Source: CAYFZR01 sp046760505 [NCBI: Candidatus Hydrothermarchaeota archaeon]
GTDB taxonomy: Archaea > CAYFZR01
Direction of reading: 5' to 3'
Length of the DNA: 19,916 bases
Assembly: GCA_046760505.1 (NCBI GenBank)
Contig: JBHIEG010000028.1
Location: 1 to 19,916, forward strand
The position numbers were made by a program, and so were the translations under genes. Under the pieces are notes generated by a model that ran no database searches, had not been told where the DNA came from, and was given only the letters and a program-made list of their open reading frames with translations. Every line of letters begins with the position of its first letter. The first letter of the stretch is position 1. Below, piece after piece: positions 512 to 14,350 of the stretch.

Positions 512-1642
512 ATGATAAAGCCCCACGGAGGAAAGTTGATAAATAGGGTCTTCAGAGAAAAGGAAGAAGAGGCAAGGGAACTTCACAGGATAGCGATAAG
601 GAGAGATCAGGCAAAAGATGCTGAAAACATAGCAAATGGCGTTTTCTCCCCCTTGGAAGGCTTTTTAAATCAGGAGGATTATAAGAGCGTTCTCTATGAA
701 AAGAGACTTGCGAATGATATTCCATGGACCATTCCCATTGTACTGGATGTTTCCGAAGAAGATTCTAAGAAAATAAGTGAGGGAGAAGATTTAGCATTAA
801 CGTACAAGGACAAAATTGTGGCGATCCTCCATTTGGAAGAAAAATATGATTATGATAAGAAAGAGTTCGCTGAAAAGATATTCGGAACCGATGATAAAAA
901 TCATCCCGGCGTGAATAAAGTTTATGAAATGAAAGAAGTTCTTCTAGCAGGAAATATAGATCTTATAAGCGAGACAGACAATCCCTTTCTCAAATATACC
1001 CTGAAACCCATAGAAACGAGAATACTGTTCAAGGAGAAAGGATGGAAAACAATCGCGGGTTTTCAAACCAGAAATGTACCTCATTTAGGGCATGAATACG
1101 TTCAAAAGACCGCTTTAACATTTGTGGATGGAATATTCATAAATCCCGTGATAGGAAAAAAGAAAAAGGGAGATTTCAGAGATGATGTCATCCTTGAAAC
1201 CTACGAAGCGCTTATAAATAATTATTATTTGAAAGACAGCGCTGTTTTAAGCATTCTACAGTTCGAGATGAGATATGCAGGTCCAAGAGAGGCAATATTC
1301 CATTCTATTGTAAGAAAGAACTTTGGATGCACCCATTTCATAGTGGGAAGAGATCACGCGGGAGTAGGGGATTACTACGATCCCTATGAGGCTCAGGAGA
1401 TATTTAATGAGTTTCCGGATCTGGGTATAGTTCCTATTTTCTTTAAATCCTTCTTTTACTGCAAGAGATGTTCTGGCATAGCAAATGAAAAAACATGTCC
1501 GCATGATGAAAATCAACGCATAAAGTTCAGCGGAACAAGGATAAGAGAGGCTATTTCAAAAAAGAAGATTCCTCCAAAGGAATTGATGAGAAAGGAAGTT
1601 GCGGAGATAATACTTAGAAAGAAAAATCCTTTCGTGGTCTGA
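512..1642 (+). CDS. sat: Sulfate adenylyltransferase (ATP sulfurylase)
   Basis: Catalyses ATP + sulfate to adenylylsulfate (APS) + pyrophosphate, the first step of sulfate activation in the cytoplasm. The 376-residue length suits a homo-oligomeric ATP sulfurylase without a fused kinase domain. An N-terminal PUA-like domain (about 1-160, with NGVFSPLEGF at 42-51) precedes the catalytic domain. The active-site motifs are intact: QTRN (185-188), HLGH (191-194), GRDHAG (279-284) and FSGTRIRE (339-346). Cys317, Cys320, Cys329 and His331 form a probable zinc site, as in other homo-oligomeric forms. The ATG at 512 follows GAGGG overlapping the preceding stop, and the next gene starts directly after this stop. 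Dissimilatory and assimilatory enzymes look alike, but the linked APS kinase and the absence of aprAB here favour PAPS production. Confidence 0.96.
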   Translation: MIKPHGGKLINRVFREKEEEARELHRIAIRRDQAKDAENIANGVFSPLEGFLNQEDYKSVLYEKRLANDIPWTIPIVLDVSEEDSKKISEGEDLALTYKDKIVAILHLEEKYDYDKKEFAEKIFGTDDKNHPGVNKVYEMKEVLLAGNIDLISETDNPFLKYTLKPIETRILFKEKGWKTIAGFQTRNVPHLGHEYVQKTALTFVDGIFINPVIGKKKKGDFRDDVILETYEALINNYYLKDSAVLSILQFEMRYAGPREAIFHSIVRKNFGCTHFIVGRDHAGVGDYYDPYEAQEIFNEFPDLGIVPIFFKSFFYCKRCSGIANEKTCPHDENQRIKFSGTRIREAISKKKIPPKELMRKEVAEIILRKKNPFVV

Positions 1643-2599
1643 ATGAAAAGAACTCTAATAATTCATCACTGGGACACAGATGGGATATGCTCTACTGCTT
1701 TACTTTTAAACTATCTTAAAGGATATATAAAAAACACCACTCCTGAAATAGGAAATTATTTTCTAAGAGATTCAGAGATAGAGGAATATGAAGATTATGA
1801 ATCCATAGTAATAGCCGATATAAGTATTCCGAGAGAAGACGTTCTGAAGATCAAAGAGAAAACAAACGCAGATATCATGATATTCGATCATCATTTGCAA
1901 GAGGAGATCAAGGAAGTATTTCATTGCAATCCTATTTTGAGAGGAGAGAGTCCGGAGATATATCCATCCACATCATGGGTGATAAACGATTATCTTAAAA
2001 ATCCTGTAAGCCTTCTATCGGTTCTCGGAGCGGTGGGAGATGCTGGAGAGAAGATAAGGGAAAATGAGTTCATCTTTCAAAAAATAAGGGAAAACATCGA
2101 TTTAAGATTTGAAGATCTGCTAAAAATGACAGAGCTAATAGATTCTAACTACAAGATTAATGACAGAAAGGGAGTAGAGAATGCGGTACATTATCTTTTA
2201 AAGAATATTAATCATCCTGAAAGAATTTTAGAAAATAGAGAATGGAATAAGAATCTAAGAAAAATAAATGTGGAGATTCAAAAGATCTTGGAAGAGCCCT
2301 CTCTATTCGAGGATGATTCTCTTATTCTTAAAGAATTTGAATCTGATTACAGCATAATTTCTTCTATAGCGAGAAATCTAGCATGGAACGCAAAAAAGAC
2401 AGCTATTGTCATCAACAAAGGCTTCTTCAAAGATAGAGATCAGATATATGTGAGAGGCGATGGATGTTTAGATAGAATTTTAGAGTTAGCAAGGGAGAGA
2501 GGCTACTCTTCTGGAGGAAAAAAGGAAGTAGTGGGTATAGTTTTGCCTAAAGAAGAATCTGAGAAATTTCTGGATAAAATACTGGAGGAACTGAGATGA
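1643..2599 (+). CDS. DHH-family phosphoesterase (candidate pAp phosphatase or nanoRNase-like)
   Basis: A 318-residue DHH/DHHA1-type phosphoesterase that should hydrolyse phosphate esters with manganese. The metal-binding motifs are visible: HHWDTDG (8-14, Asp11 and Asp13), Asp59 in IADIS, DHH (82-84) and GDAG (132-135). The C-terminal part ends with SGGKKEVVG (290-298), which takes the place of the DHHA1 motif GGHxxAxG and has Lys instead of His. The start codon abuts the sat stop, and its own stop overlaps the next ATG by 4 nt, so translation is coupled. Family members include RecJ nucleases, nanoRNases and pAp phosphatases. Its position between the two PAPS-forming enzymes favours pAp removal, but this is inference. 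An archaeal RecJ-like nuclease is the alternative. Confidence 0.85.
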   Translation: MKRTLIIHHWDTDGICSTALLLNYLKGYIKNTTPEIGNYFLRDSEIEEYEDYESIVIADISIPREDVLKIKEKTNADIMIFDHHLQEEIKEVFHCNPILRGESPEIYPSTSWVINDYLKNPVSLLSVLGAVGDAGEKIRENEFIFQKIRENIDLRFEDLLKMTELIDSNYKINDRKGVENAVHYLLKNINHPERILENREWNKNLRKINVEIQKILEEPSLFEDDSLILKEFESDYSIISSIARNLAWNAKKTAIVINKGFFKDRDQIYVRGDGCLDRILELARERGYSSGGKKEVVGIVLPKEESEKFLDKILEELR

Positions 2600-3960
2600 G
2601 GGTTTTAGTGATAGGCCTGGACTCTGCTCCCCCGGAGCTGGTATTCGATGAATTCATAGATGAGCTTCCCAACATAAAGAAAATGGTTGAAAATGGTATT
2701 TATGGTAAATTAGAGAGTATTCATCCTCCCATAACAATTCCTGCATGGATATCCATGGCAACAAGCAAGAGTCCTGGCAAACTGGGACTCTACGGATTCA
2801 GACACAGAAAGAATTACTCTTATAAAGATATCTGGATTGCAAATTCCCATTCCATTAAAGAAAAAGCGATCTGGGATATTTTAGCAGAGCATGATAAAAA
2901 ATCCTGTTTGGTAGGAGTTCCTCCAAGCTATCCTCCCAAAAAAATAAACGGCTGGTTGATATCCTGCTTCATAACTCCTGATACAAAAAAAGATTATACC
3001 TATCCTAAAGAATTGAAAAGAGAAATAGAGAGCCTGGTGGGAGAATACATCGTAGATGTTGAATTTAGAACCGATGAAAAGGATAAACTGCTGAAAGAAA
3101 TCTATGAAATGACAGAGAAGAGATTTGAGGTAATTAAATATCTCCTGCAAAATAAAGACTGGGACTTCTTCATGTTTGTGGAAATAGGCTTGGATAGAGT
3201 ACAGCATGCATTCTGGAAGTTCTTTGATAAGGAGCATCATCTCTATCAGAAAAGCGAATACGAAAACGTAATTAAAGACTACTACAGGTATCTGGACAGA
3301 GAAATTGGAGATCTTCTTTCTATAGCAAGGGATGCCATTATATTAATTGTTTCTGACCATGGCGCAAAAAGAATGAAAGGTGCTTTTTGTATAAACGAGT
3401 GGCTGATAGAAAAGGGATATCTAAGGCTAAAGAACAAGCCAGATAGAATCATAAGTTTGGATAAGGCAGAGATAGACTGGAAAAATACAAAAGCATGGGG
3501 CTGGGGCGGTTATTACGCGAGAATTTTCTTGAATGTGGAGGGAAGAGAGCCTCAGGGAACAATAAAGCCCGCTAGTTATGAAAGTTTCAGAGATGAAATT
3601 GCAAGGGAAATAATGAATATAAGAGACTCGCAGGAAAATCCCATGGATAATAAGATTTTAAAGCCAGATGAGATTTTTGATGAATACAACGGAGACTATC
3701 CGGATCTCATGGTTTACCTCGACGATTTATACTGGAGATCAGCCGGCACGATAGGACATAATTCCTTATATTTAAAGGAAAACGATACAGGTCCTGATGA
3801 TGCGGTTCACTCTGCGCATGGAATTTTCATAATATACGATCCAAGGAAGAAGATCGGAAAAGAGGTTGATGCAAGCATACTGGATATTGCTCCCACGATT
3901 CTGGATCTCATGGGAATACCTGTTCCCCGTGATATGGAAGGTAGCATTATAAGGGTGTAA
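2596..3960 (+). CDS. Alkaline-phosphatase-superfamily type I phosphodiesterase / nucleotide pyrophosphatase
   Basis: A 454-residue member of the AlkP superfamily, close to the nucleotide pyrophosphatase/phosphodiesterase branch. The expected two-metal ligands and nucleophile are present: Asp9 in VIGLDS, Thr47 in PPITIPAW (nucleophile), Asp200 and His204 in GLDRVQHAFW, Asp254-His255 in VSDHG, and His408 in HSAHG. There is no signal peptide, so it acts in the cytoplasm. The ATG overlaps the DHH stop codon (ATGA), and cysC starts 3 nt after its stop. Related genes often sit near archaeal surface-glycan and sulfate-activation genes. The substrate could be a nucleotide-sugar, a lipid-linked phosphodiester or a nucleotide such as APS/PAPS; the sequence does not decide. 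Fold sure, substrate open. Confidence 0.88.
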   Translation: MRVLVIGLDSAPPELVFDEFIDELPNIKKMVENGIYGKLESIHPPITIPAWISMATSKSPGKLGLYGFRHRKNYSYKDIWIANSHSIKEKAIWDILAEHDKKSCLVGVPPSYPPKKINGWLISCFITPDTKKDYTYPKELKREIESLVGEYIVDVEFRTDEKDKLLKEIYEMTEKRFEVIKYLLQNKDWDFFMFVEIGLDRVQHAFWKFFDKEHHLYQKSEYENVIKDYYRYLDREIGDLLSIARDAIILIVSDHGAKRMKGAFCINEWLIEKGYLRLKNKPDRIISLDKAEIDWKNTKAWGWGGYYARIFLNVEGREPQGTIKPASYESFRDEIAREIMNIRDSQENPMDNKILKPDEIFDEYNGDYPDLMVYLDDLYWRSAGTIGHNSLYLKENDTGPDDAVHSAHGIFIIYDPRKKIGKEVDASILDIAPTILDLMGIPVPRDMEGSIIRV

Positions 3961-3963
3961 GAA

Positions 3964-4491
3964 ATGGAAAAGGGATTTGTCATATGGCTCACAGGACTTC
4001 CTGCATCAGGCAAAACCACCATAGCAAGAGAATTAGAGAGTATTTTGAGAGATAAAGGAATTAAAGTAGAAGTATTTGATGGAGACGAGGTAAGAAAAAA
4101 ATTGAGCCCTGACTTAGGATTCAGCAAGAGAGATAGAGAAATTCATGCGAAAAGAGTGGCTTATGTCAGCAAACTTCTTGCCAGAAACGGTGTGGCAGTA
4201 ATAGTTGCTCTAATATCTCCATACAGAAAATTTAGAGAAAATGCAAGAAAGGAAATCGGCGATTTCATAGAGGTTTACGTGAAATGCTCTCTCGAAACAT
4301 GCATGAAAAGAGATCCCAAGGGTATATTCAAAAAGGCGTTGAGAGGAGAGATAAATAATTTGACAGGAGTCCAAGATCCCTATGAAGAGCCTTTGAATCC
4401 TGAAGTAACAGTTAATACAGAAGTAGAGACTCCTGAAGAAAGTACAATGAAAATAATAGAGAAACTCAAGGATCTTGGATATCTGGAGTGA
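3964..4491 (+). CDS. cysC: Adenylyl-sulfate kinase (APS kinase)
   Basis: Phosphorylates APS at the 3' position to give PAPS, the sulfuryl donor. At 175 residues it is a stand-alone kinase of normal size. It has a P-loop GLPASGKT (11-18), the APS-binding DGD (39-41), the FSKRDREIHAKR segment (53-64), ISPYR (84-88) with the conserved serine at 85, and RDPKGIFKKALRGEI (116-130) followed by TGVQDPYEEP (134-143), all matching bacterial CysC. The start is 3 nt after the phosphodiesterase stop. It ends LKDLGYLE, resembling the tail of the RHH protein at the operon start. With Sat it completes PAPS synthesis; no PAPS-using enzyme is in the window. Confidence 0.96.
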   Translation: MEKGFVIWLTGLPASGKTTIARELESILRDKGIKVEVFDGDEVRKKLSPDLGFSKRDREIHAKRVAYVSKLLARNGVAVIVALISPYRKFRENARKEIGDFIEVYVKCSLETCMKRDPKGIFKKALRGEINNLTGVQDPYEEPLNPEVTVNTEVETPEESTMKIIEKLKDLGYLE

Positions 4492-4495
4492 TGAA

Positions 4496-5284
4496 ATGGA
4501 TCCTGCTCACCTTATCATCGGCTTTGTAGTAGGCTTCTTGATAGGTCTTAGCGGAGTTGGAGGAGGAGCAATTTTAACTCCTCTACTAATTTTTTCCGGT
4601 GTTTTGCCGATGTATGCGGTGGGCTCTAGTCTGGTATATGCATCTCTTACAAAGAGCCTCGGCTCCGTATTGCATCATAGAAAGGACAATATAGAGTTCA
4701 GTACGGTTAAGATCCTACTCTTAGGAAGTGTTCCTGCCTCATTTTTAGGCATACTATTGCTCAACTACCTCAAAAGTAAATTTAGCTTCCAGTTCCTCAA
4801 CGCATTCATAAGTTCCTTGCTGGCCATAATTTTGATTCTGGTGGCAATCATATATTTCTCACAGATAATGGGGAGTGGAATTAAACTGAAGAATCCTTCT
4901 AAGAAGAAACTGATTTTAGCCGGCTTTATAGTAGGAATAACCGTTCAGCTAACATCTGTTGGAAGCGGAGTCTTGGTAACGTTGTTTTTGCTTCCCATTT
5001 TAGTTCCCAGAAAGGTGGTGGGAACCGATGTATTCCATGCATTCGTGCTGACAAGTTTCGCAGGTATGATGCAATTTGGCATTGGAAACGTGTTGCCCTC
5101 TCTGGTTCTTGTGCTTCTGATCGGATCGATTCCAGGAGTAGTAATAGGCGTGAGTCTGAGCTCCAGAATACCTATAAAGCCTTTTCATATAATTCTAACC
5201 TTTGTGATATTTTTCTCTGGATTGCTTTTGCTCCTGAAGAACTTTGGCTTCATCATGGTTACAGATTTCTTGCAGGAGAAATGA
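4496..5284 (+). CDS. TauE/SafE-family membrane transporter (sulfur compound import or export)
   Basis: A 262-residue polytopic protein with about eight hydrophobic helices arranged as two repeats. The repeat signatures are GLSGVGGGAILTPLL (17-31) and VQLTSVGSGVLVTLFLLP (150-167), typical of TauE/SafE (formerly DUF81). The family moves organosulfonates, sulfite or sulfate across the cytoplasmic membrane. Being last in a sat/cysC operon, it most likely handles sulfate or sulfite. I chose the ATG at 4496, 7 nt after a GGAG site at 4485-4488, over an upstream in-frame TTG at 4475 that would overlap cysC. The gap after the cysC stop is 4 nt. Direction and substrate are not shown by the sequence. 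Confidence 0.9.
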   Translation: MDPAHLIIGFVVGFLIGLSGVGGGAILTPLLIFSGVLPMYAVGSSLVYASLTKSLGSVLHHRKDNIEFSTVKILLLGSVPASFLGILLLNYLKSKFSFQFLNAFISSLLAIILILVAIIYFSQIMGSGIKLKNPSKKKLILAGFIVGITVQLTSVGSGVLVTLFLLPILVPRKVVGTDVFHAFVLTSFAGMMQFGIGNVLPSLVLVLLIGSIPGVVIGVSLSSRIPIKPFHIILTFVIFFSGLLLLLKNFGFIMVTDFLQEK

Positions 5285-5285
5285 T

Positions 5286-5335
5286 CATCTTGTTATTACA
5301 TGGTAAATTAGATATAGATAAAATAACAAAAGATG
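5286..5335. repeat. Imperfect inverted repeat spanning the start of the next gene
   Basis: TTGTTATT (5290-5297) pairs perfectly with AATAACAA (5322-5329). CATC (5286-5289) and GATG (5332-5335) extend the stem across a two-A bulge. The element begins 1 nt after the transporter stop and its right arm includes the ATG at 5333. It may be an end-of-operon hairpin, or it may hide the start codon in read-through RNA. Confidence 0.45.
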
Positions 5336-6292
5336 TTTCTCGGTAGTTGCATGAGGTACCTGATCTTGATTCTGTTAATCGGCGTCTCTGGAGCAGATAC
5401 CCTACTCTACACGCCGGGAATGCTCATAGAAAAGCAGGGAGACACCGTGGTAATACCTGCAACGATATATCATGATGAAAACTATAAACTCGAAGAGGTA
5501 AGCCTTTATTTGAAGCAATCTGGATTTATTACTCCAAATAAGACCAGCATAAAATACAAGAACGTTTGTCCGCGTTTGCCGAAGAGAGAGAAATTCTTCC
5601 TGGAAATTCCCAAGCGAACAGGTGAGGGAGTCTACATCGTAGATGTTATAATGGACTATGTGTACAAAGGAGAAAGATACAGAAAGATAAAGAGCATTCC
5701 TGTCTATGTATTGGAGAGGAGGGTTCATCTTTTTTCGGTTACCGCAAGGGATTCCATCACGCCAGGAGATTTTCTGATTCTAAACCTTTTTGTGGTAAAC
5801 ACAAATGAGAAAGAAGAGTCTTTCGCCTTACTTGTGAACTTTAGGAACGTATCGATAACAAAGATCTACAAAATAGGCGGGGATCAGCAAATAAATTATG
5901 GTCTGGCTTTAAAGATTCCAGAAAATATAACCCTCGGCTACCAGAAAATAACGGTGGACATGTACTCGGGAATCACCCATGAGAAATACGAGAAGTGGGT
6001 AAAAGTAGTTCCAAAAAATCTCCAGTATACGGTAGTTGTAAATCCTGAAACAGACTCCATGTCTTCAGATTTGTTAAAAGATGATTATAAAGTTGTATCC
6101 TGCGATGAAAATGTAGAGGGAAATCTTATTGTTATAGGGGGTGAAGAGACCAACAGATATGCCTCAGGTTTAGGACTGGGACTAAAGGCGTATAATCTGG
6201 GAGAAAGGGACATAATACTAATTGCTGGAAGAGATAGAGAAGAAACCTTGATGTTAACGCGTTATTTTCTGGAAATAGAAAAAAATATATAA
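5333..6292 (+). CDS. Secreted protein with an S-layer-C-like C-terminal segment
   Basis: A 319-residue exported protein. Residues 7-21 (MRYLILILLIGVSGA) look like a signal peptide, so the start may be the ATG at 5351 instead of 5333. The first two thirds are beta-rich with Asn-X-Ser/Thr sites, suggesting immunoglobulin-like extracellular modules. The end (about 265-315, with LIVIGGEETN and IILIAGRDREETLMLTRYFLE) resembles the C-terminal motif of methanogen-type S-layer proteins (a GG-N half followed by an AG-RE-T half). I see no C-terminal membrane anchor or sorting signal. No ribosome site precedes either ATG; a TATA-like stretch near 5305-5315 could give a leaderless or short-leader message. 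Coat or coat-associated function is an inference. Confidence 0.7.
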   Translation: MFLGSCMRYLILILLIGVSGADTLLYTPGMLIEKQGDTVVIPATIYHDENYKLEEVSLYLKQSGFITPNKTSIKYKNVCPRLPKREKFFLEIPKRTGEGVYIVDVIMDYVYKGERYRKIKSIPVYVLERRVHLFSVTARDSITPGDFLILNLFVVNTNEKEESFALLVNFRNVSITKIYKIGGDQQINYGLALKIPENITLGYQKITVDMYSGITHEKYEKWVKVVPKNLQYTVVVNPETDSMSSDLLKDDYKVVSCDENVEGNLIVIGGEETNRYASGLGLGLKAYNLGERDIILIAGRDREETLMLTRYFLEIEKNI

Positions 6293-6329
6293 CTGAAAGA
6301 ACATCATTTGCTTGGAGATGGGGGTAAAC

Positions 6330-7031
6330 ATGAAAAAATCTATAGTAGTTCTCCTGTTAATTGGGATCTTGATTTTACCCATGTGCCTCCAAGAGGAAGC
6401 AATTCCTCCAAAGACGGCAGAGGCAATCAAAGAAGAGGTTAAGAAGGAAATAGAGAAGCCTCCTTTAATTGAAGAGAAACCTCCGTTGGTACCAGAGAAA
6501 CCTAAAGAGCCAACAATTGAGATTCCCATAGTGACCCTTAAGGCAACCAAAGAGGAACTTCCTTGGGCAATACTGGTTGATACAAAAAAAGATGCCACAA
6601 TCGATTACCTAAAATCTGAGGGTTTCAGGGTTTATTTATATGAGGAATGGTTCTCTCTAACCGTATTTCCCAGATACGATGAAGTTTTAATTCTGAGGAC
6701 GGAAGATCCAATATTGCTCATGTACGGCGCGAGATACGCCAAACTCACAAACAAACTCCTTGTTGTAGGTCCCTGCGGCTGTGAAATAACCAAACTGGAG
6801 TACATCACCAAGAGACATGCAGCAAGTGGTGTCATCCTCTTGGGAGAGGAAAAGTGTCTCCTTCCCGGTGAAGTAAGCAAACTTAAAGCCATCCTAGAAA
6901 GGTTCGTAACAGTAGTCACGATGGAAACTACTGCGGAGGTAGCAAAAAAGGTCTATGAAGAAACCGGAAGAAGAGGAGTCTACGGAGGCGGCGGGGTGAA
7001 AAGAAAAGTTCCACCCGCTAACATAGGTTAA
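6330..7031 (+). CDS. Exported, lipoprotein-like protein with Pro/Glu/Lys spacer
   Basis: From the ATG at 6330 the product has 233 residues. A basic start (MKK) and a hydrophobic core end in ILPMC, so Cys19 could be lipid-modified, although Met at -1 is not a standard lipobox residue. A Pro/Glu/Lys-rich spacer follows, with two near copies of KPPL, then a compact alpha/beta domain of about 150 residues with a CGC motif and one further Cys. The tail is Gly- and Lys-rich. I chose 6330 because GGGGGT lies a few bases before it; a TTG at 6312 and an ATG at 6318 are in frame. It lies 37 nt after the preceding secreted-protein gene, probably in one transcript. I do not recognise the family. Confidence 0.65.
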   Translation: MKKSIVVLLLIGILILPMCLQEEAIPPKTAEAIKEEVKKEIEKPPLIEEKPPLVPEKPKEPTIEIPIVTLKATKEELPWAILVDTKKDATIDYLKSEGFRVYLYEEWFSLTVFPRYDEVLILRTEDPILLMYGARYAKLTNKLLVVGPCGCEITKLEYITKRHAASGVILLGEEKCLLPGEVSKLKAILERFVTVVTMETTAEVAKKVYEETGRRGVYGGGGVKRKVPPANIG

Positions 7032-7032
7032 C

Positions 7033-7890
7033 TCATTCAACGTTTATCCAGAGATGAGTTTCGCGATAGGGTTCGGTAAAATTATTCTCTTTGTATAGTA
7101 AAAACTCCAACTTCAAATCCTTACCTTTTTTATTGGGAGTAAATATAATGGGCTCCTCGAAAGTCTCGTTGTGGTCTAGGCGCAGGGTTTTCTCAATTAA
7201 AGTTTCGTTGGATAGTTTTATTCTGAGCGTATAGTTGATCGTTTCGTATTCATGATTTACTATGCCCAGTATAACCTTTCCGGAATCTCCTAACTTCAAT
7301 TCAGTTGGATAATTCTTAGCAGATCCGTTTGGACCTAAAATGTAAAATTCCGTAAATCTTTCTCCTTTCTTTGGAGTTACAATAACGTATGCAAGCATGC
7401 ATACCGCTAAAAAGATGGAAATGATGAGAAAGATCGTCAGTATCTTGTCTACCTTACTTTTAGGCTTCTCAAAGATCTCTGCCTTAAATGATTCATAGAT
7501 CTCTTTAAATGGAACAAAAAATCTCTCCTCCTCTGGGAGTTTTAGTCTCCTTAGATGCGCGGTTACCACAAGCGCTAGGGTGAATACGGATAGAGTAACA
7601 ATTATCGGAATCAGTCTAATACCGAAGGGCGTGTAGTTTAAAACCAAGCCGAGCAATGGAACAACCGCTATGCTAAGTCCAAAACTCAAGGCAAATCTCT
7701 CTATTCCATCTAGATCTCCTTTTCTTGGAAATAAGGATGCTATCAATGCATATCCCGGCAGAAAAAGGACCATCATTATTCCAAGAATCACCCTGACTGG
7801 AGTCTTATTCAAGGGGGGAACGAGTACAAAGAGGAGTGTAAGTAGTACAAGCGCGGTTACGATTTGCAGATCTTTTGGAATCTTGAGCAT
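7033..7890 (-). CDS. DUF1616 membrane protein
   Basis: A 285-residue membrane protein matching the archaeal DUF1616 family. Residues 8-112 hold about four helices, including GIMMVLFLPGYALIASLFP (37-55). A soluble cytoplasmic stretch (113-146) and a fifth helix (148-171) follow. The C-terminal extracellular part contains EFYILGPNGSAKNYP (181-195) and GIVNHEYETINYTLRI (209-224), a CARDB-like beta domain with several N-glycosylation sequons. The family is common near archaeal surface-glycan and exosortase-type genes; its activity is unknown. No ribosome site is evident, but a TATA-like CTTATTTTTA (7911-7920) lies about 26 nt before the ATG, fitting a leaderless message. Its stop is one base from the stop of the convergent gene. 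Confidence 0.85.
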   Translation of the reverse strand: MLKIPKDLQIVTALVLLTLLFVLVPPLNKTPVRVILGIMMVLFLPGYALIASLFPRKGDLDGIERFALSFGLSIAVVPLLGLVLNYTPFGIRLIPIIVTLSVFTLALVVTAHLRRLKLPEEERFFVPFKEIYESFKAEIFEKPKSKVDKILTIFLIISIFLAVCMLAYVIVTPKKGERFTEFYILGPNGSAKNYPTELKLGDSGKVILGIVNHEYETINYTLRIKLSNETLIEKTLRLDHNETFEEPIIFTPNKKGKDLKLEFLLYKENNFTEPYRETHLWINVE

Positions 7891-7937
7891 ATGTTTAACT
7901 GAACTTTACATAAAAATAAGTTTATGCATGAGAATGT

Positions 7938-8252
7938 TCAAGATATGAGGACAAAATAGATCTTATTTATAAGTATGATGGTAAAAACTAATAACAAGGC
8001 TAAAATAGAGGCTTTTGTGCCGTTTGTCAGTGTTTTAATCCTTTTTGATATCGCTGACGTGGATAATTCCACTATGATCAAGAGCATGATAAGCGCTATG
8101 GTGGCAATCATTCCATTTGTCTCAAAATTCATGTGCAGTCCGGATACGGTAAGAGCATTGGTGGAAATCGCGCTGACACTTGATACAGAAGAAGTGGTTG
8201 TTGTGGTTGTGGTAACAGTAGAAGTGGTTGTGGTTATGGTCGATGAAATCAT
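7938..8252 (-). CDS. Small Thr/Ser-rich membrane protein
   Basis: A 104-residue product beginning with a Thr/Ser-rich stretch (3-31, with runs of 4 and 7 Thr). It is followed by a hydrophobic helix (48-68), a basic turn SKRIK (69-73) and a second helix (80-101). The Thr/Ser region would be a natural O-glycosylated linker outside the cell. The strand choice rests on a TATA-like TTATAAATA (8275-8283) about 27 nt before the ATG, ideal for a leaderless transcript, and on the same direction as the archaeosortase genes. The opposite strand is also open here but lacks such a promoter and would encode a Val-rich repeat. I recognise no family. Linker, helix and basic cluster resemble the parts of a sorting signal, but the second helix makes this unusual. 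Confidence 0.55.
   Translation of the reverse strand: MISSTITTTTSTVTTTTTTTSSVSSVSAISTNALTVSGLHMNFETNGMIATIALIMLLIIVELSTSAISKRIKTLTNGTKASILALLLVFTIILINKIYFVLIS
8191..8240. repeat. Low-complexity GTGGTTGT repeats encoding the Thr tract
   Basis: GAAGTGGTTG occurs at 8191 and again at 8221, with GTGGTTGT units between and after. On the minus strand this gives ACA/ACC threonine codons. Repeat expansion probably shaped the Thr tract of the small membrane protein. Confidence 0.6.
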
Positions 8253-8274
8253 AAATGATATTCAAGCATACTCA

Positions 8275-8283
8275 TATTTATAA
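8275..8283 (-). promoter_or_regulatory. TATA-like promoter of the Thr-rich gene
   Basis: Read on the minus strand the sequence is TTATAAATA, close to the archaeal TATA consensus. Its centre lies about 27 nt before the ATG at 8252, so transcription would begin at or next to the start codon. Confidence 0.5.
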
Positions 8284-8303
8284 TTTTCTTTCATTATACT
8301 GAT

Positions 8304-8873
8304 CTAATCTCTTGTCTTTTGAATTATCCTATCTAACAGTTTTATCTCCTTTTCAGCGAAAAAAAGCGCTGTGTCATGGGCTTCTTCTACATTTTGCGTT
8401 ACAGGGGTACAAATCTGAATCATCATGCTGTACTTAAAGCTCGGAAGAAAGAATAAAACCTTGGATCTCCTCTCAAATATATTCAAGTACCATGCTATAA
8501 CCCATCTTTTTTCTCCGTTCTTTTCTACCAAAAGTTTCATCACATTTCTATCGTGGTAGATGGTTTTTTCTTTCGTTAATATGTTCCATCCGGCCAGTTT
8601 ATAGCATGTATACGGGTCCTGCAAACTTTTAAGCCCCCTACCTTTATAAAGCGCTATCCATGTCTTCACATCCTTGGATGTATACTGTTTTACGGCTACA
8701 GATTCTTTTTCTGATAGGGTAGACTCCCTGAATCCTGTTATAGTTGGAAACAACTCTTCCGATTTAAGCTCTGGAATTGAATCTCTTGGGAGAGGCTTTT
8801 GAACTATTAAAGGTATCCAAGACAGTATAAGTATGGTTAAGACAAGCAAGGCGTATCTCTGCTCTTTATTCAT
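8304..8873 (-). CDS. EpsI-like exosortase-associated protein
   Basis: A 189-residue protein with one N-terminal signal-anchor helix (7-25) and an extracytoplasmic domain. The segment DPYTCYKLAGWNI (86-98), with Cys90 and Gly95-Trp96, recalls the Cys-x(n)-Gly-Trp motif of EpsI/DUF3485 proteins. In bacteria those are encoded next to, or fused to, exosortases. The start overlaps the end of the archaeosortase gene by 8 nt, and the ribosome site GAGGGTG lies 7 nt before the ATG, so the two are cotranslated. That context supports the family call, which from sequence alone is weaker because overall similarity looks low. The biochemical role of EpsI domains is not known; a partner in handling the sortase substrate is the usual idea. 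Confidence 0.7.
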   Translation of the reverse strand: MNKEQRYALLVLTILILSWIPLIVQKPLPRDSIPELKSEELFPTITGFRESTLSEKESVAVKQYTSKDVKTWIALYKGRGLKSLQDPYTCYKLAGWNILTKEKTIYHDRNVMKLLVEKNGEKRWVIAWYLNIFERRSKVLFFLPSFKYSMMIQICTPVTQNVEEAHDTALFFAEKEIKLLDRIIQKTRD

Positions 8874-9657
8874 GGGCGAGCACCCTCAAATAAACTATCA
8901 TCAGGATCATGAACATTAACCAGCCTCCAAATATGTGAAACACTCCTTGAGCCAAGTGCATATTGTTTAGTGCTATCAGCAAGATCAGCATTAGTCTCAT
9001 GACATTAATTGCAGGTATGAGTAAGAGTATCGAAAGGCTTAAAATAGTTTTTCTCTTTAGGCTTTGGAGAGGTAAAAGAAAGATAAACGCTGTAAACACA
9101 AAAAAAGGTATCAGGATCTCTCCGCTACTGCAGAGAGGAGTTATATAGAACATAGGCACTCCTTCGTTGAGTATAACCGTATCTTTTAGAGATAGATCAG
9201 TACCCAATCCATTTAATATGTCGATGGCTAAGTTAGCCTCTAAAAGTGATAGTTTGGCTCCAAAATAGGTTATCACGTAGTAGTTTGGTGGTATTAAAAA
9301 TATTAAAAAGAGTATTGAAGGAATTGCTTTTTTTACCTTTTGAACAGGATAAAAGAGCAGTAAATAGCCAAATATGAAAGCCATTAGAGACAGAATCATT
9401 ACTTCCATCGAGAGATAGAACAGATTATACCTGAGAAAAGAGACAAGTACCAGTAAAATCAGACCCGCTACCCTGAAAAATTTTTCATTTTCACAGGGGA
9501 TTTTCCATCTTTCTTTAAATATAATAAAGGACATTATGGGCACCAGGATGCCGTGCCTTGACCACGGATCTTCGTACCAAATTGATAGAAGGCGAAAGAT
9601 CTCACTGCCGAAAAGAGGAATCAATGCGAGAATAAATACTGCATTTATGAATCGCAT
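8866..9657 (-). CDS. Archaeosortase/exosortase-family transpeptidase
   Basis: A 263-residue multi-helix membrane protein with the catalytic triad of the family: Cys176 in TPLCSSGE, Arg221 in INVMRLML and His241 in VFHIFGGW. The N-terminal signature WYEDPWSRHGILVP (27-40) and the central IPPNYYVITYFG (122-133) also match. These enzymes cleave a C-terminal tripartite signal (short motif, helix, basic cluster) on exported proteins and are thought to transfer them to a lipid or other anchor. I chose the ATG at 9657; the frame stays open to 9852, but that part overlaps the protease gene and does not resemble the family. There is no clear ribosome site. A TATA-like TTTATAAAG near 9692-9700 may be an internal promoter. 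The subtype (ArtA-E) cannot be assigned by eye, and no canonical substrate is encoded here. Confidence 0.9.
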   Translation of the reverse strand: MRFINAVFILALIPLFGSEIFRLLSIWYEDPWSRHGILVPIMSFIIFKERWKIPCENEKFFRVAGLILLVLVSFLRYNLFYLSMEVMILSLMAFIFGYLLLFYPVQKVKKAIPSILFLIFLIPPNYYVITYFGAKLSLLEANLAIDILNGLGTDLSLKDTVILNEGVPMFYITPLCSSGEILIPFFVFTAFIFLLPLQSLKRKTILSLSILLLIPAINVMRLMLILLIALNNMHLAQGVFHIFGGWLMFMILMIVYLRVLAHE

Positions 9658-9695
9658 ACCGAGTAACTCTGTGTAGGATAACTCTATAAATTTCT

Positions 9696-10535
9696 TTATA
9701 AAAATTTGTGATACGGGAGCATCTGAAACAACACCATGTTCACCATGAAGTGAGCGGCTATGGGAGTCATCAGACTTCTCGTAACATAAAAAATAATTCC
9801 AAATACTATTCCTACGTAGAATGTAAAAGCGATCTCCATGGAACTTAGCCATATGCTGTGCATGCCGCTGAATATAATGCTTGTCAATATGATTGCATAG
9901 AAAGAATCCGTAACCTTCAGTGCATTCGAGAGAAAAATCCCCCTGTATAGAAGCTCTTCTGTGAACCCAAGCATGAAAAATGTAGATACAGATACGAACG
10001 GATAGTAAGGTAAGACCTTTCCGGGAGAGAGTATTAAAAATTCAGTTATTCCAAGTATGGCTCCGAGTATCAGACCCAGGACAATGTTTTTCACGAAGTT
10101 TTCTCTGATCAGCCCTAGATCCCTAAGATCAAAGCCCTGATGATAGGCAAGGATCATGGAGGCTGGCAGCAGTATGGAATATGTTATCTGAAACTGATAG
10201 TGGGTCAGGAATAGATTTAAGGGAAGTCCGGAATTTACCAGACGGAGTAATGCGAAGAGTATAAAACTCTGAATTACGAGAACGATATTTCTTTCATCTA
10301 TAAAGAGAGGAGAAAGCACTGCGAGGATTATGAGTGCTACATACGCTACTATGCCCCAGTAGGTTGAGTGGTAGGAATAAATGCCCTCGCTGGATAGGAG
10401 AAACAGCGTAAATATCAATGGATACTTCATCTTGCTTAGGTTAAATCTTTCTAAGGAGAGATATTTAATAGCCAGTACAATGCAGGAGATTATTATAAGT
10501 ATATTCAAGATTAATACGGGAAAGCCGATGTTCAT
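9696..10535 (-). CDS. CPBP-family intramembrane metalloprotease
   Basis: A 279-residue membrane protein with about eight helices and the CPBP (CAAX protease/bacteriocin-processing, Abi) motifs: EELLYR (193-198), FSGMH (222-226) and HFMVN (262-266). Glu193, Glu194, Arg198, His226, His262 and Asn266 are in place, so it should be active. Its ATG overlaps the stop of the large surface-protein gene (ATGA), with GAGG 5-7 nt before it. The archaeosortase follows after 38 nt. Fusions of a CPBP protease with an exosortase are known in bacteria (exosortase E type), so the adjacency suggests joint action on a membrane-embedded substrate. Natural candidates are the two paralogous proteins encoded just upstream; this is inference. 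Confidence 0.9.
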   Translation of the reverse strand: MNIGFPVLILNILIIISCIVLAIKYLSLERFNLSKMKYPLIFTLFLLSSEGIYSYHSTYWGIVAYVALIILAVLSPLFIDERNIVLVIQSFILFALLRLVNSGLPLNLFLTHYQFQITYSILLPASMILAYHQGFDLRDLGLIRENFVKNIVLGLILGAILGITEFLILSPGKVLPYYPFVSVSTFFMLGFTEELLYRGIFLSNALKVTDSFYAIILTSIIFSGMHSIWLSSMEIAFTFYVGIVFGIIFYVTRSLMTPIAAHFMVNMVLFQMLPYHKFL

Positions 10536-12907
10536 TCTTCCTCATCTCCCATCATGGCATAATTCTTGATGGCATAAATCGTGATGACAAATACAATCAG
10601 TGCGAGCGTAACCATTACCTTTAATGATCGAATTTTATCTTTGAGACTCGATAGATCATCTTTGGCAAATGATATTGTAATCTCAGCGTAATCATATGCA
10701 CGTTTAGCCTGAAGTTTGGAATCTGAATACAGGTGTGCCATGTACAGCGACCTTGCCTCGCTTTCATACTCTCTAGCCCTCTTGTAAAGGGACATCAGGT
10801 GATCCATGTCCTCCTTATCGGACTTGATCCAGAGGAACTCTACACTCTCCAGTTCTTTTATCAGATCACCTGCCTCTTTCAGCCTTTCCTCACATGATTT
10901 CAAATATTCCAATGCGGGTTCCTTTTCCTCAATTTCCTTCTTTCTTTCAATGTAACTGTACCTGTTTTCTGCAAGCGTTAAAAGCACGCTTGAAGAGTTC
11001 AAGAAGGAGTTTGCCCTGAGGAATTCTCCTTCAGAATATGCCTTTCTCGAGTCCTCCAACATCTTTTTGCTTAGATACAACAGTTCACTTGCATGGAGGG
11101 CGTCCGGGGATTTTATATAAGAAAGTTTATCTTCCAGCTCCAGGATCTCTTCCTCATTTTTTTCAATGCTTTTTGGAATTTTTTCTTTTATATAAGATAA
11201 TTTTTCGGTTTGTTTTCTTTTAAGTTCTGCCTTTCTTGTTTCCTGTATCCTTGCAATCTTTTTAAGTTCGTCATTGTAGTCTATTCTCAATGTTATATTG
11301 GTGGGAGATGTAAATTTATAGTAGAAAACGTCTTTTCCATCCTCTTTATATTGATACGCTGGAGGAGGAGAAGCTTTTTTAAGAATCAAACCTTCTGGAA
11401 GTTTTACTAAAATTTCAGCAAGAAAAACCTCTCTATTCAGAGCAGGTTTCAGGTAGAGGTAGTAATCAAAATCGCTCACTCTATTTATAAGATCTTTTGT
11501 ATAGGTCTCGATGGTATATCTGTATCGCCTTGTGTGCCTTACTGGCTCTCTAAAGGATGTTTGTATCAGGCTACCTTTGTCTTCCGGGATTACATTAAAT
11601 TTTAACGGCCCGTAGCGATCATATATCGCGAAAGAATTGGTGCTTCCCAGATTAAGATATATCCTGTCGTGGGTTATGTATGAAAAAGAGACATTGTTCT
11701 CGTATACTATGGTTCCGGTGAAATGGCAGGTTCCCGCCCCGGTTACATCAACGGTAAAGTAGACATTTGGATAGAAACCCTCTGAGCTTATGGCATGGGC
11801 TGGCAGCATTAATGCGAGAAGCAGAAACCAGAACCTCTTTCTAAAAAGGAAATAGAATATCAGCATCGTGAGTAGGGGTAGAACAGTGCCCATCGGGACA
11901 AATGGAACTGGAGGAATCACCTCTGGTTTGGTATAAACTTTTGCCCTCTTGATTTTCTCTCTCAAATAATCTAGAAGAAATGTCGCGGTTCTATTACTCT
12001 TGCGTATATCCACCGTCCATTTGCTCACCTCAGTAATTGGCAATTCAGTTTTAGGTATACTTACTTCGATGCTCTTTTCTCCCCATGAGATTGATGAACA
12101 CGATGCTAAACCGCTAAAATATGTTTTGTTCCATTTATACAATCTAAAAGAATCTCTTTCATCGATTTTAATCATGTAATCTGCTCCCATGGATGGAGGC
12201 TCCTCTCCGCTTGCTGATGTTGGCATCAAGGAAAGTGAGAATCCTGTTTTATTAGAGGAATCAGCATCGATCCATATGGTAAATTGCTTTGAGTAGGGCA
12301 GTGATTTCTCTATATCGCCCTCGGTTACGATCTTATAGTGCACGGTATCGTTCCCCTCAGATAGATATGAATTCACTATGTTTGATTCTGCAGGCGGCTT
12401 TTTTACATCCCCATCTTTGATAGAAGTTTTCCAGACCGGGGTTATGTTTTTTACAGATAGTTTTTCGATTTCTCTTCTATAATCAAAAAAATAGGCATTT
12501 GGGCGATTATACCTATCATATACAAAAAAAGGATAGAGACCATCTTCTTTTATGGAGGAAAGTTCAAATATAAGGATATATGGCTGAAGAGCCTTTAATT
12601 TTTCTAATTGAATGGAATAAGCCCTTTCCGCATGGAGTAATTTTGGCGTGATATTTAGAACCCTTATATCAATCCTCTTGGCATCAATGTCATAGGCTCT
12701 GAAATTCCTCGCGTATAAATTCTCAGAGAGTTCTATGGTTATGTTCTCCTTTTCCAAGTTTATGTCAGAGGTTAGAGTCACCATAGTACTTACAATAGGT
12801 CTTTGATCACTTGCTTTTTGGTCCGTGCATAAAATACTGGTCTGCGCGAGAGCAACGGGTAAAAGAAGTGCGATCAAGGTTACGAATGTTACATTTTTCA
12901 GAACCAT
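10532..12907 (-). CDS. Large composite surface protein with internal transmembrane hairpin
   Basis: A 791-residue product that reads like two proteins joined. Residues 1-22 are a signal peptide (cut near ALA). The first ectodomain (23-325) includes IWIDADSSNKTGF (211-223) and GADYMIKI (241-248), resembling DOMON/CBM9-like beta sandwiches. PPVPFVPMG (332-340), a helix (341-355), RKR (356-358) and a second helix (359-372) ending in AHA then make a hairpin. The second half repeats the layout of the neighbouring 473-residue protein: beta domain (373-545), helical segments (550-760, with FLWI at 691-694) and a C-terminal helix (764-780). Only a short acidic tail is cytoplasmic. The gene starts 1 nt after its paralogue's stop, with GAGGG just upstream, and overlaps the CPBP gene. 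A fusion of two ancestral genes fits best. Function is unrecognised; it is a candidate client of the archaeosortase/protease. Confidence 0.85.
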   Translation of the reverse strand: MVLKNVTFVTLIALLLPVALAQTSILCTDQKASDQRPIVSTMVTLTSDINLEKENITIELSENLYARNFRAYDIDAKRIDIRVLNITPKLLHAERAYSIQLEKLKALQPYILIFELSSIKEDGLYPFFVYDRYNRPNAYFFDYRREIEKLSVKNITPVWKTSIKDGDVKKPPAESNIVNSYLSEGNDTVHYKIVTEGDIEKSLPYSKQFTIWIDADSSNKTGFSLSLMPTSASGEEPPSMGADYMIKIDERDSFRLYKWNKTYFSGLASCSSISWGEKSIEVSIPKTELPITEVSKWTVDIRKSNRTATFLLDYLREKIKRAKVYTKPEVIPPVPFVPMGTVLPLLTMLIFYFLFRKRFWFLLLALMLPAHAISSEGFYPNVYFTVDVTGAGTCHFTGTIVYENNVSFSYITHDRIYLNLGSTNSFAIYDRYGPLKFNVIPEDKGSLIQTSFREPVRHTRRYRYTIETYTKDLINRVSDFDYYLYLKPALNREVFLAEILVKLPEGLILKKASPPPAYQYKEDGKDVFYYKFTSPTNITLRIDYNDELKKIARIQETRKAELKRKQTEKLSYIKEKIPKSIEKNEEEILELEDKLSYIKSPDALHASELLYLSKKMLEDSRKAYSEGEFLRANSFLNSSSVLLTLAENRYSYIERKKEIEEKEPALEYLKSCEERLKEAGDLIKELESVEFLWIKSDKEDMDHLMSLYKRAREYESEARSLYMAHLYSDSKLQAKRAYDYAEITISFAKDDLSSLKDKIRSLKVMVTLALIVFVITIYAIKNYAMMGDEEE

Positions 12908-12908
12908 A

Positions 12909-14330
12909 TCATCCCTCTTTAATTTTTTCTTGGATCTTGGAGATTTTTTTATCGATTTCTTCCAACCTTCTCTCGTACTCCTCCTTGGATATCAGTTTTC
13001 TCTCATAGTCCTTGGATACTTTGATATACTCTTCCCTAAGCGACTCCAATGCTTCTGAGGGCTCTTCCATGCCAGAAATATAATCATAAAACCGGGAGAA
13101 TCTAAAGGCTATGTTCTCTTTGAATATCGCAAACACTCCTGCAAGAAGAATTACTCCGATTCCTAAGAGTGTTAATCGAACCATGGATTCTTTCCGTCTA
13201 ATCTCTCTGTCAGCAAGTGCAATAGCCTTAGAAGCATATTCCCAGGATTTTTTTGCCTCTACATTTGCTAAAAGATATTTTTTATTTTGGAGTGCTTTTT
13301 TCGCACTTTGATAATGGAGTTTTGAAGAGGAATATTCTTTGTTCACCCCGGTTACATTGGGCTCGATCCAGAGAAATCCATTCAGATGATCAAGTTTTTT
13401 TTCTATACGTCTCAAACTTTCATTAGCCATCTTTAGGTACATCAAACTAGATTTCAGAGCCTCTTTCTCAGTTTTTTGATTAAATTCTTCCAATTTGATT
13501 TGAATAGAATCAATCAAACGTGTCGATGATAACAGATAAGCCTCAGCGCTGTCAAAATCAGATTTTTTTAAATAGGACTGAGACAGTGCCAGCATTTCTT
13601 CTGCCTTATCTAAACACTCTAAGTACAGATCAACATTTCTCTCAACTTCTTGGAGTTCTGATGCAAGAGTCCTGAGACCGTTAATCCTCTCAATTTGGTT
13701 GGATATGTTTTGCTCTAACTCCAACGTTTTGGGCTCTGGGGGATTAAGTATCTTGGTGCCTCCTTTCTCACGGTTGTAGTGTATTGATATCCTTGTAAGA
13801 TCCGACATGGGCTTCAAATCATAGAAGAAGACAATTCTCTTTCCCTCTTTATATATCCGCTCTGGATCGGGTGAATAAGACCTGTACCTTGCGTTGTAAG
13901 GCAGTCTTATGAGTACATCAAGATCAGATACAGGTATTCCCTCGATGGTGCCGAATGTAAGGTTGAAGACGTATGAAAAAGTTCCAGTCTTGGTAACCAG
14001 TCCCTTTGAATAAAATTTCACCGTGTATCTTAAAACTTCTTTCGCAACGTCTCTTCTAAACTTAATGTCTATTGTTGATATATCTCCTTTTCTGATATCA
14101 TAATCAAAGGGTCCTTCCTCGCTTAATATTTCAACGTACCAGATTTCATCCACATTTAAGAATACAGTATCCTTGGTTGCGATTGTTTCATACTGAAGGT
14201 TGGAGTATGTAACGTTTAATACTATATAGGCAATTTCTTCCTCCAAAAGATCACAAGTTACCTTTATCTCCGGATGTATTCCAGAATAGCCCTGAACAGT
14301 AGAGAGAAGAGCGAGCATCATCAGCATCAT
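12909..14330 (-). CDS. Membrane-anchored surface protein, paralogue of the downstream gene's second half
   Basis: A 473-residue exported protein. It has a short signal peptide (1-14, or longer from an upstream ATA codon), a beta-rich ectodomain (15-187) and long helical stretches (205-380, with FLWI at 319-322). A transmembrane helix (383-403) and a cytoplasmic tail (404-473) follow. The tail segment LISKEEYERRLEEIDKKI (446-463) resembles a SHOCT-type helical motif. From the beta domain to the membrane helix it aligns with residues about 415-780 of the next gene: shared VLIRLP/ILVKLP, FFYDL/FYYKF, FLWI, and the AKKSWEYASKAIALA/AKRAYDYAEITISFA helix. It is first in the minus-strand operon. The strong site GGGGAGGTT (14351-14359) lies too far from the ATG at 14330 but well placed for ATA at 14343-14345. 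Function unrecognised. Confidence 0.85.
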   Translation of the reverse strand: MMLMMLALLSTVQGYSGIHPEIKVTCDLLEEEIAYIVLNVTYSNLQYETIATKDTVFLNVDEIWYVEILSEEGPFDYDIRKGDISTIDIKFRRDVAKEVLRYTVKFYSKGLVTKTGTFSYVFNLTFGTIEGIPVSDLDVLIRLPYNARYRSYSPDPERIYKEGKRIVFFYDLKPMSDLTRISIHYNREKGGTKILNPPEPKTLELEQNISNQIERINGLRTLASELQEVERNVDLYLECLDKAEEMLALSQSYLKKSDFDSAEAYLLSSTRLIDSIQIKLEEFNQKTEKEALKSSLMYLKMANESLRRIEKKLDHLNGFLWIEPNVTGVNKEYSSSKLHYQSAKKALQNKKYLLANVEAKKSWEYASKAIALADREIRRKESMVRLTLLGIGVILLAGVFAIFKENIAFRFSRFYDYISGMEEPSEALESLREEYIKVSKDYERKLISKEEYERRLEEIDKKISKIQEKIKEG

Positions 14331-14350
14331 AGCAATAAGTCTTATGGTCG

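Follow-up and report, generated by a model that had tools for sequence, protein, structure and literature searches.

Genes and protein families of the locus

The stretch of DNA analysed here (the window), 19,916 nucleotides (nt) of contig JBHIEG010000028.1 from CAYFZR01 sp046760505, a Candidatus Hydrothermarchaeota archaeon, carries on its minus strand, from position 14330 down to 7033, seven tightly packed open reading frames (ORFs). In that order, they encode two surface proteins (SP1 and SP2), a CPBP protease, an archaeosortase (Art), an EpsI-like protein, a threonine-rich protein with two transmembrane (TM) helices, here termed 2TM, and a DUF1616 membrane protein. The genes overlap or are separated by short gaps, as the initial annotation of this DNA had described, and their features are as follows.

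12909..14330, minus strand: SP1, 473 amino acids (aa), with a signal peptide, a beta ectodomain, a long helical region, a TM helix at about 383-404 and a tail of about 70 aa
10532..12907, minus strand: SP2, 791 aa, a fusion of a secreted N-terminal half, at whose end lies an internal tripartite segment, and an SP1-paralogous C-terminal half
11834..11920, minus strand: internal tripartite segment of SP2, residues 330-358, VIP-PVPFVPMGTVLP-LLTMLIFYFLF-RKR
11792..11830, minus strand: signal-peptide-like stretch of SP2, W360-A372, directly after the RKR cluster and aligning with the N-terminus of SP1
9696..10535, minus strand: CPBP glutamic intramembrane protease (PF02517), 279 aa, with EELLYR, FSGMH and HFMVN
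8866..9657, minus strand: archaeosortase (PF09721, TIGR04178), 262 aa, with C175, R220 and H240
8304..8873, minus strand: EpsI-like protein (DUF3485), 189 aa, with Cys90 kept and Gln in place of the usual His at 85
7938..8252, minus strand: 2TM, 104 aa, with a Ser/Thr-rich N-terminus and an invariant Glu62 ending TM1
7033..7890, minus strand: DUF1616 membrane protein (Pfam), 285 aa

A single nucleotide separates SP1 from SP2, SP2 overlaps the protease gene by 4 nt, and the archaeosortase and EpsI genes overlap by 8 nt. The archaeosortase start is best set at 9657, 38 nt past the protease gene, as an alternative 328-aa ORF from 9852 would overlap the latter; residues C175/R220/H240, numbered on 262 aa, are C176/R221/H241 when counted with the Met at 9657.

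Searches with profile hidden Markov models placed three of the proteins above the cut-off of their family. The archaeosortase matches Exosortase_EpsH (PF09721; E 8.7e-30, 104.4 bits, cut-off 25.7) and NCBIfam TIGR04178 (34.7 bits, cut-off 23), the protease matches the Rce1-like/CPBP family PF02517 (E 3.3e-16, 59.8 bits, cut-off 22.4), and the DUF1616 protein matches PF07760 over profile positions 1-307 of 307 (E 3.8e-105, 351.9 bits, cut-off 31.6). The EpsI-like protein falls slightly below the cut-off of DUF3485 (PF11984; E 5.4e-5, 23.4 bits against 26.1), which its relatives at loci L091, L092 and L075 exceed with 36.8, 35.6 and 58.8 bits (L and G numbers denote loci and genomes, respectively). 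The sortase and protease motifs, previously described as intact, are indeed so: C175, R220 and H240 are invariant across 12 aligned sequences, as are E194, R198, H262 and N266 of the protease motifs EExxxR and HxxxN across nine. Where the sortases of the window, G014 and G021 read CSSG, the other aligned relatives read CSG(M/F/L). None of the named NCBIfam sortase classes (ArtB, ArtC, ArtE, XrtA and others) reached its cut-off for the window enzyme, the best class models being XrtD (58.6 of 400 bits) and XrtA (56.4 of 208 bits) with no archaeal class model listed; no relative was found by sequence in the PDB, and a single-protein scan of genome contigs with the enzyme gave 48 pattern matches with no relative among them.

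Several observations concern relatives of the other module proteins. In the alignment, motif 2 of the G080 CPBP (L075:7000-7764) is without its His, and in one genome group (L129, L130, L131), the CPBP is about 420 aa long, with an N-terminal part that in L131 weakly matches TPR-type models. DUF1616 proteins also occur at L075, L091 and L092 and, by sequence, at L128 and L136; a passage of PMC8241124 lists the Haloferax DUF1616 protein HVO_2173 as an N-glycosylated membrane protein.

SP1, SP2 and a candidate sorting segment

SP1 is paralogous to the C-terminal half of SP2 only (24% identity over 428 columns), so the earlier description of two paralogous surface proteins holds for that half and fails for the N-terminal half of SP2, which has no counterpart in SP1. 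As the alignment runs from the signal peptide of SP1 onwards, that peptide falling on the SP2 stretch just past the RKR cluster, we regard SP2 as a secreted protein to which one of the SP1 type has become fused; W360-A372 is likely the relic of a separate gene. Neither protein has a Pfam or NCBIfam family above cut-off or an NCBIfam match to the PGF-, PEF-, VPXXXP- or PEP-CTERM signal models, in agreement with the earlier statement that standard tails are missing, and the tripartite segment of SP2 is of a non-standard kind. SP1 shows no tripartite sorting tail in a hydropathy scan, ending instead in a TM helix and about 70 cytosolic residues. Structure prediction was unusable for the N-terminal half of SP2 (pLDDT 39); a CBM9/DOMON fold, considered for this half at first, was not retained. 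The SP1 model, made from two sequences, has a mean pLDDT of 67, with only 34-69 per ten residues in the beta domain; its top structural match is ribophorin I/Ost1 (6s7t_E, Z 11.1, rmsd 3.5 over 162 residues), followed by the N-domains of M1 aminopeptidases and integrin domains (Z 9-9.6), and the modelled resemblance of this ectodomain with a single TM helix and a helical tail to ribophorin I/Ost1 is to be taken as a lead only.

The middle of SP2 reads PVPFVPMGTVLP-TM-RKR (residues 330-358 in full, VIPPVPFVPMGTVLPLLTMLIFYFLFRKR). In genome G014, a protein encoded directly upstream of a related archaeosortase gene, its stop overlapping the sortase start (ATGA), ends in PVPFAPFGTLIP-TM-RRKR (in full, PVPFAPFGTLIPMAGSLAAYAYLRRKRS); this gene has an N-run upstream, and only its last part could be read in frame. 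The two segments have in common PVPFxPxGTxxP, a hydrophobic stretch and RKR, and align with a local score of 66, against a maximum of 49 among 4,525 hydrophobic segments of all loci (a sample picked by a hydropathy threshold) and of 49 in 5,000 shuffles. By BLASTP, the tail is all that the two proteins have in common (52% over 29 residues, E 8e-6 as a single comparison). When a profile made from both tails was run on six-frame ORFs of at least 60 residues from 2.08 Mb of partly overlapping loci, it matched these two places only, the next best reaching 7.8 bits; as both rows built the profile, the gap is the informative part. No second protein with such a tail was found in the 675 kb of G014 that were read. 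The ectodomain of the G014 protein has a relative in G021 (48% identity over 119 columns), but the G021 protein bears a PEF-type tail instead, IPEFPTVAVPAILALGGYLVMRRRKRG (IPEFP...RRRKRG); its contig also carries an ArtC. As judged from these sequences, the PVPFxPxGTxxP tail is exchangeable, as would be expected of a sorting signal, since the G014 ectodomain has another tail in G021 and the G014 tail sits on another ectodomain in SP2.

It could be objected that the segment of SP2 is just a common stop-transfer helix and resembles the G014 tail by chance, given that there are two examples, that no NCBIfam model matches SP2 and that a profile of PE-type tails is negative. We consider this quite unlikely in view of the alignment score, of the presence of both proteins in operons of the same archaeosortase group and of the different sorting tail carried by the same ectodomain in G021.

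The initial annotation had SP1 and SP2 alike as dedicated clients of a protease and a sortase acting jointly, and named repeated co-occurrence with the archaeosortase as support. The tight operon speaks for such a scheme, as does the relation of SP1 to the paralogous half of SP2, but SP1 has no motif-TM-basic tail, and that co-occurrence did not appear. An SP1/SP2 profile matched two of 247 genomes, weakly (G103 in three places, and G250) and not beside the module archaeosortase, the G103 matches lying on contigs other than that of its Art-like ORF; tblastn over 18 loci found SP2 in one, weakly, and SP1 in none. We therefore judge the joint-client scheme improbable. A search for SP2 through 23 genomes in the phylum of Ca. 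Hydrothermarchaeum gave one weak match, a similar ectodomain joined to a DUF7343 winged helix; there was no match in viral contigs, and none in 53 genomes from the same order as G002, a scan that lacked a positive control and is uninformative.

A recurring gene set and the CPBP-2TM pair

Relatives of the module were sought around two reference genomes, that of Ca. Hydrothermarchaeum profundi (G001) and a genome of the Methanophagales (G002), the group also called ANME-1. Used alone as a query, the window archaeosortase matched four of 61 relatives of G001 (G021, G014, G092 and a 1198-aa ORF in G103) as well as 11 of the 58 G002-class genomes; an archaeosortase profile matched eight of 247 relatives of G001, adding to the same four some weaker matches to long ORFs in G086, G206, G258 and G292. 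In trees, the window sequences group with G021/G014 for the archaeosortase (UFBoot/SH-aLRT support 100/100), with G021/G014/G020 for CPBP (99/98) and with G014/G020 for EpsI (99/98), the three genomes being members of the G001 phylum set; the trees are rooted at the midpoint, the window rows sit on long branches, and the program gave its long-branch warning for the Art and EpsI trees. The G103 ORF (L093:2515-6111), at a contig end, starts with a VPEFP-type tripartite stretch followed by an archaeosortase and further parts, possibly a client tail fused to its sortase.

Of 15 Art loci inspected (L075-L085 and L090-L093), eight hold Art, EpsI, CPBP and 2TM together (L075, L078, L080, L082, L084, L085, L091 and L092). 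Art, EpsI and CPBP are found at L081, Art and CPBP at L090, Art and EpsI at L076, L077 and L083, and Art only at L079 and L093, several of these contigs being short. Secreted proteins with PE/PEF-type tripartite tails were detected by script in seven of the 15 (L075, L077, L079, L080, L084, L085 and L092) and by eye at L078; the same script found no tail in the window, where no PEP-CTERM was found either. Starting from the protease, CPBP occurs in 40 of the 58 genomes of the G002 class, and 30 loci, the best match in each of 30 of these 40 genomes with 1.5-kb flanks, contain Art in 18 cases, EpsI in 19, either in 20, 2TM in 15, and 2TM with Art or EpsI in 12. The adjacency of protease and sortase, suggested earlier to be functional, is hence recurrent, and is seen also in G021, G014 and G092. 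In G014, the order differs (2TM, Art, client, EpsI, CPBP, DUF1616); as the order varies while the set stays together, the link is more than unbroken synteny. Art, EpsI, CPBP and 2TM are thereby shown, at the level of sequence, to be a recurring gene set.

Within this set, the steadiest partner of CPBP is 2TM, a family of about 76-109 aa in which most members begin with M-[IL] and a Ser/Thr-rich stretch, followed by TM1, which ends in an invariant Glu (KEILSS/KELLSA), and TM2. Its members have no Cys and no C-terminal tripartite tail, and those scanned (window, L131 and L130 with both libraries; L078 with Pfam; L136 with NCBIfam) passed no Pfam or NCBIfam cut-off, the nearest model being Mem_trans (15.7 of 25.7 bits, L131). 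Among the 247 relatives of G001, CPBP is present in 23 (E <= 1e-15) and 2TM in 20 (E <= 1e-3), all of them among those 23 (Fisher p 1e-26, kinship ignored), and 2TM matches lie within 2 kb of a CPBP match in 21 of 23 cases and within 5 kb in 22, the exception being G269. G001, G013 and G021 have CPBP without 2TM; a 2TM search of G021 and an Art search of G020 both found nothing. This association is no independent test, since CPBP neighbours in some of the genomes searched had served to build the 2TM profile. A less dependent one comes from the phylum of G207, which includes G002-class genomes and in which 99 of 392 genomes hold 2TM, some in several copies and one in seven: the 26 loci of the best matches (L239-L264; 1.5-kb flanks, some CPBP matches being pieces cut by the locus end) show CPBP in 22, EpsI in four and Art in none, and after dropping four from genomes in or near the models, CPBP stands beside 2TM in 18 of 22. 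Control loci totalling 761 kb gave no CPBP, 2TM or EpsI match and one Art match, an ArtC. Because 2TM adjoins CPBP widely and mostly without an archaeosortase, the pair looks, on this distribution, like an older unit that has the sortase as an occasional neighbour.

These counts invite the view that CPBP and 2TM, perhaps with DUF1616, form one system and Art with EpsI another, the two merely sharing a surface-protein neighbourhood. Under this arrangement, CPBP-2TM would be a protease-target pair, for which part of PMC11980579 offers a precedent in MrtJ and its single JDVT-CTERM target. The closeness of 2TM to CPBP and the G207-phylum and control counts favour it; against it stand the 20 of 30 G002-class loci with Art and/or EpsI beside CPBP, the persistence of the set in G014 under a changed gene order, and 2TM itself, which is without the Cys and the C-terminal tripartite tail, and whose profile, made from CPBP neighbours, may have under-sampled CPBP-free members. 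We regard two separate systems as possible, if somewhat unlikely. In another scheme, CPBP would work in parallel to the archaeosortase and sort proteins of the CGP-CTERM type encoded elsewhere in the genome. The window protease does match the myxosortase models, all under cut-off (MrtS 33.1 of 130, MrtJ 25.8 of 75 and Mrt_core 24.1 of 100 bits), as do the CPBPs of relatives, and the parts read of G014 and G021 contain, respectively, two proteins and one with GICGPT(I/L)V...R tails resembling CGP-CTERM (L303:346-1974, L204:8476-9885 and L220:6740-8233), one scoring 17.2 bits against TIGR04288 CGP_CTERM, just under its cut-off of 21. The same script found no such tail in the window or the other loci, all of them short stretches, and the link to 2TM would be left unexplained, so that we give this scheme little credence. 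Of the GICGPT-tailed proteins, one weakly matches multiheme cytochrome models and another has a PGF-pre-PGF domain.

The remainder of the window holds further genes on the plus strand. Positions 5333-7031, convergent with the module, encode two secreted-looking proteins (319 and 239 aa) with no family above cut-off, the C-terminus of the former looking similar by eye to L128:3418-4557. A run at 512-5284, probably a sulfate activation operon, encodes sulfate adenylyltransferase, a DHH protein, a phosphodiesterase, adenylyl-sulfate kinase and a TauE/SafE exporter. PurP of the window is 51% identical to that of G002 (L001) and 50% to that of G001 (L057); for HisD, the best identity is 52%, with many genomes tied at 50-52% and no clear nearest group.

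A probable surface-anchoring module and its known counterparts

Taking sequence and analogy together, we think it rather probable that the locus encodes a module by which an archaeosortase anchors surface proteins, with SP2 as one probable dedicated, internally tagged client, the N-terminal half of which would be cut and anchored to lipid, and with CPBP-2TM as an older unit beside the sortase. SP2 would be exported via its signal peptide and halt in the membrane near residues 340-355, whereupon the archaeosortase would use its Cys-Arg-His residues to cut near PVPFxPxGT and, by analogy with ArtA and its substrates, hand the ectodomain of the N-terminal half over to a lipid of the membrane. The remainder of SP2, the fused SP1-like C-terminal half, would be left as a membrane protein in its own right, in parallel with the fused Haloferax substrate HVO_0405. 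CPBP would most likely act on 2TM and, less likely, on the TM peptide left by the sortase. What survives of the dedicated surface-processing system proposed earlier is a sortase system with a recurring protease neighbour and a tripartite segment in SP2; SP1, which shows no signal, does not fit it, and SP1 and SP2 are not conserved with the gene set.

A number of findings weigh against the anchoring module. The signal is represented by two proteins, one from a gene with an N-run, and no protein with a PVPFxPxGTxxP tail was found in G021 (179 kb read) or G020 (one 6-kb contig) of the same group. In SP2, the hydrophobic part is short and hydrophobic residues run on past RKR, and a profile of the PE/PEF-type tails from the other Art loci scored the segment no better than shuffles. 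The window EpsI lacks the usual His, retaining Cys90. As for the gene set, G002 and G029 have Art with no CPBP match at E <= 1e-15, the 20-kb loci L137 and L138 have long Art-like ORFs and no CPBP, EpsI or 2TM, and of the 20 2TM carriers among the relatives of G001, 18 have no Art match at E <= 1e-15; G020 is among these 18, and its EpsI lies on a contig that breaks off.

A close counterpart of the module is the ArtA system of Haloferax, in which the substrate HVO_0405 is described as a fusion of domains that is cleaved at a central site (PMC7157517). SP2 fits this architecture, as two fused genes with a tripartite segment (330-358) between them and, presumably, cleavage there by an archaeal Cys-Arg-His sortase; an internal MYXO-CTERM case is discussed in part of PMC11980579. 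Unlike the ArtA system, that of the window has PVPFxPxGTxxP in place of PGF, a sortase matching EpsH/exosortase models and no archaeal class model, and neighbouring genes for EpsI, CPBP and 2TM.

Exosortase A with EpsI (TIGR03109, PF11984) likewise pairs an EpsH-type enzyme with an adjacent EpsI-like protein, but the window enzyme scores far under the XrtA cut-off and no PEP-CTERM was found in the window. In exosortase E/protease, of the VPEID-CTERM system (TIGR04162), an EpsH-type sortase is fused with a protease, which is a CPBP. In the window, by contrast, the two are separate ORFs, and TIGR04162 is not among the models listed for the archaeosortase. ArtC/PEF-CTERM (TIGR03762) is found in the relative G021, where an ArtC (L229; 193.5 of 100 bits) shares a contig with two IPEFP-tailed proteins; being a gene other than the module archaeosortase and on another contig, it means that G021 holds at least two archaeosortases, and the window enzyme does not match the ArtC model. 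The two-gene unit of MrtJ and JDVT-CTERM, as presented in part of PMC11980579, resembles CPBP-2TM in that a CPBP protease has one dedicated partner gene; the partner in the window differs in having two TM helices, a Ser/Thr stretch at its N-terminus and neither a Cys nor a tripartite tail at the C-terminus. A bolder proposal makes 2TM the missing partner of the sortase reaction, accepting the client instead of or besides lipid, with CPBP preparing or recycling this acceptor; we hold it to be very improbable, and were it true, CPBP-2TM in archaea without a sortase would serve some other route of surface-protein attachment or signalling.

For the biology of these archaea, the anchoring reading proposes a sorting signal, PVPFxPxGTxxP, together with its enzyme and a fused client that can be tested; literature searches returned no title on such a signal or on a pair of CPBP and small protein, which does not establish their absence from print. 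A passage of a 2017 review gives ArtA and ArtC domains as absent from ANME-1 (PMC5244752), and the set of archaeosortase, EpsI, CPBP and 2TM is shown here in many genomes of the class of the Methanophagales genome G002. 2TM itself emerges as a widespread, protease-linked small membrane protein that falls under all Pfam and NCBIfam cut-offs, and if, as we can only guess, culturable methanogens are among the carriers of CPBP-2TM, the role of this CPBP group would be directly testable.

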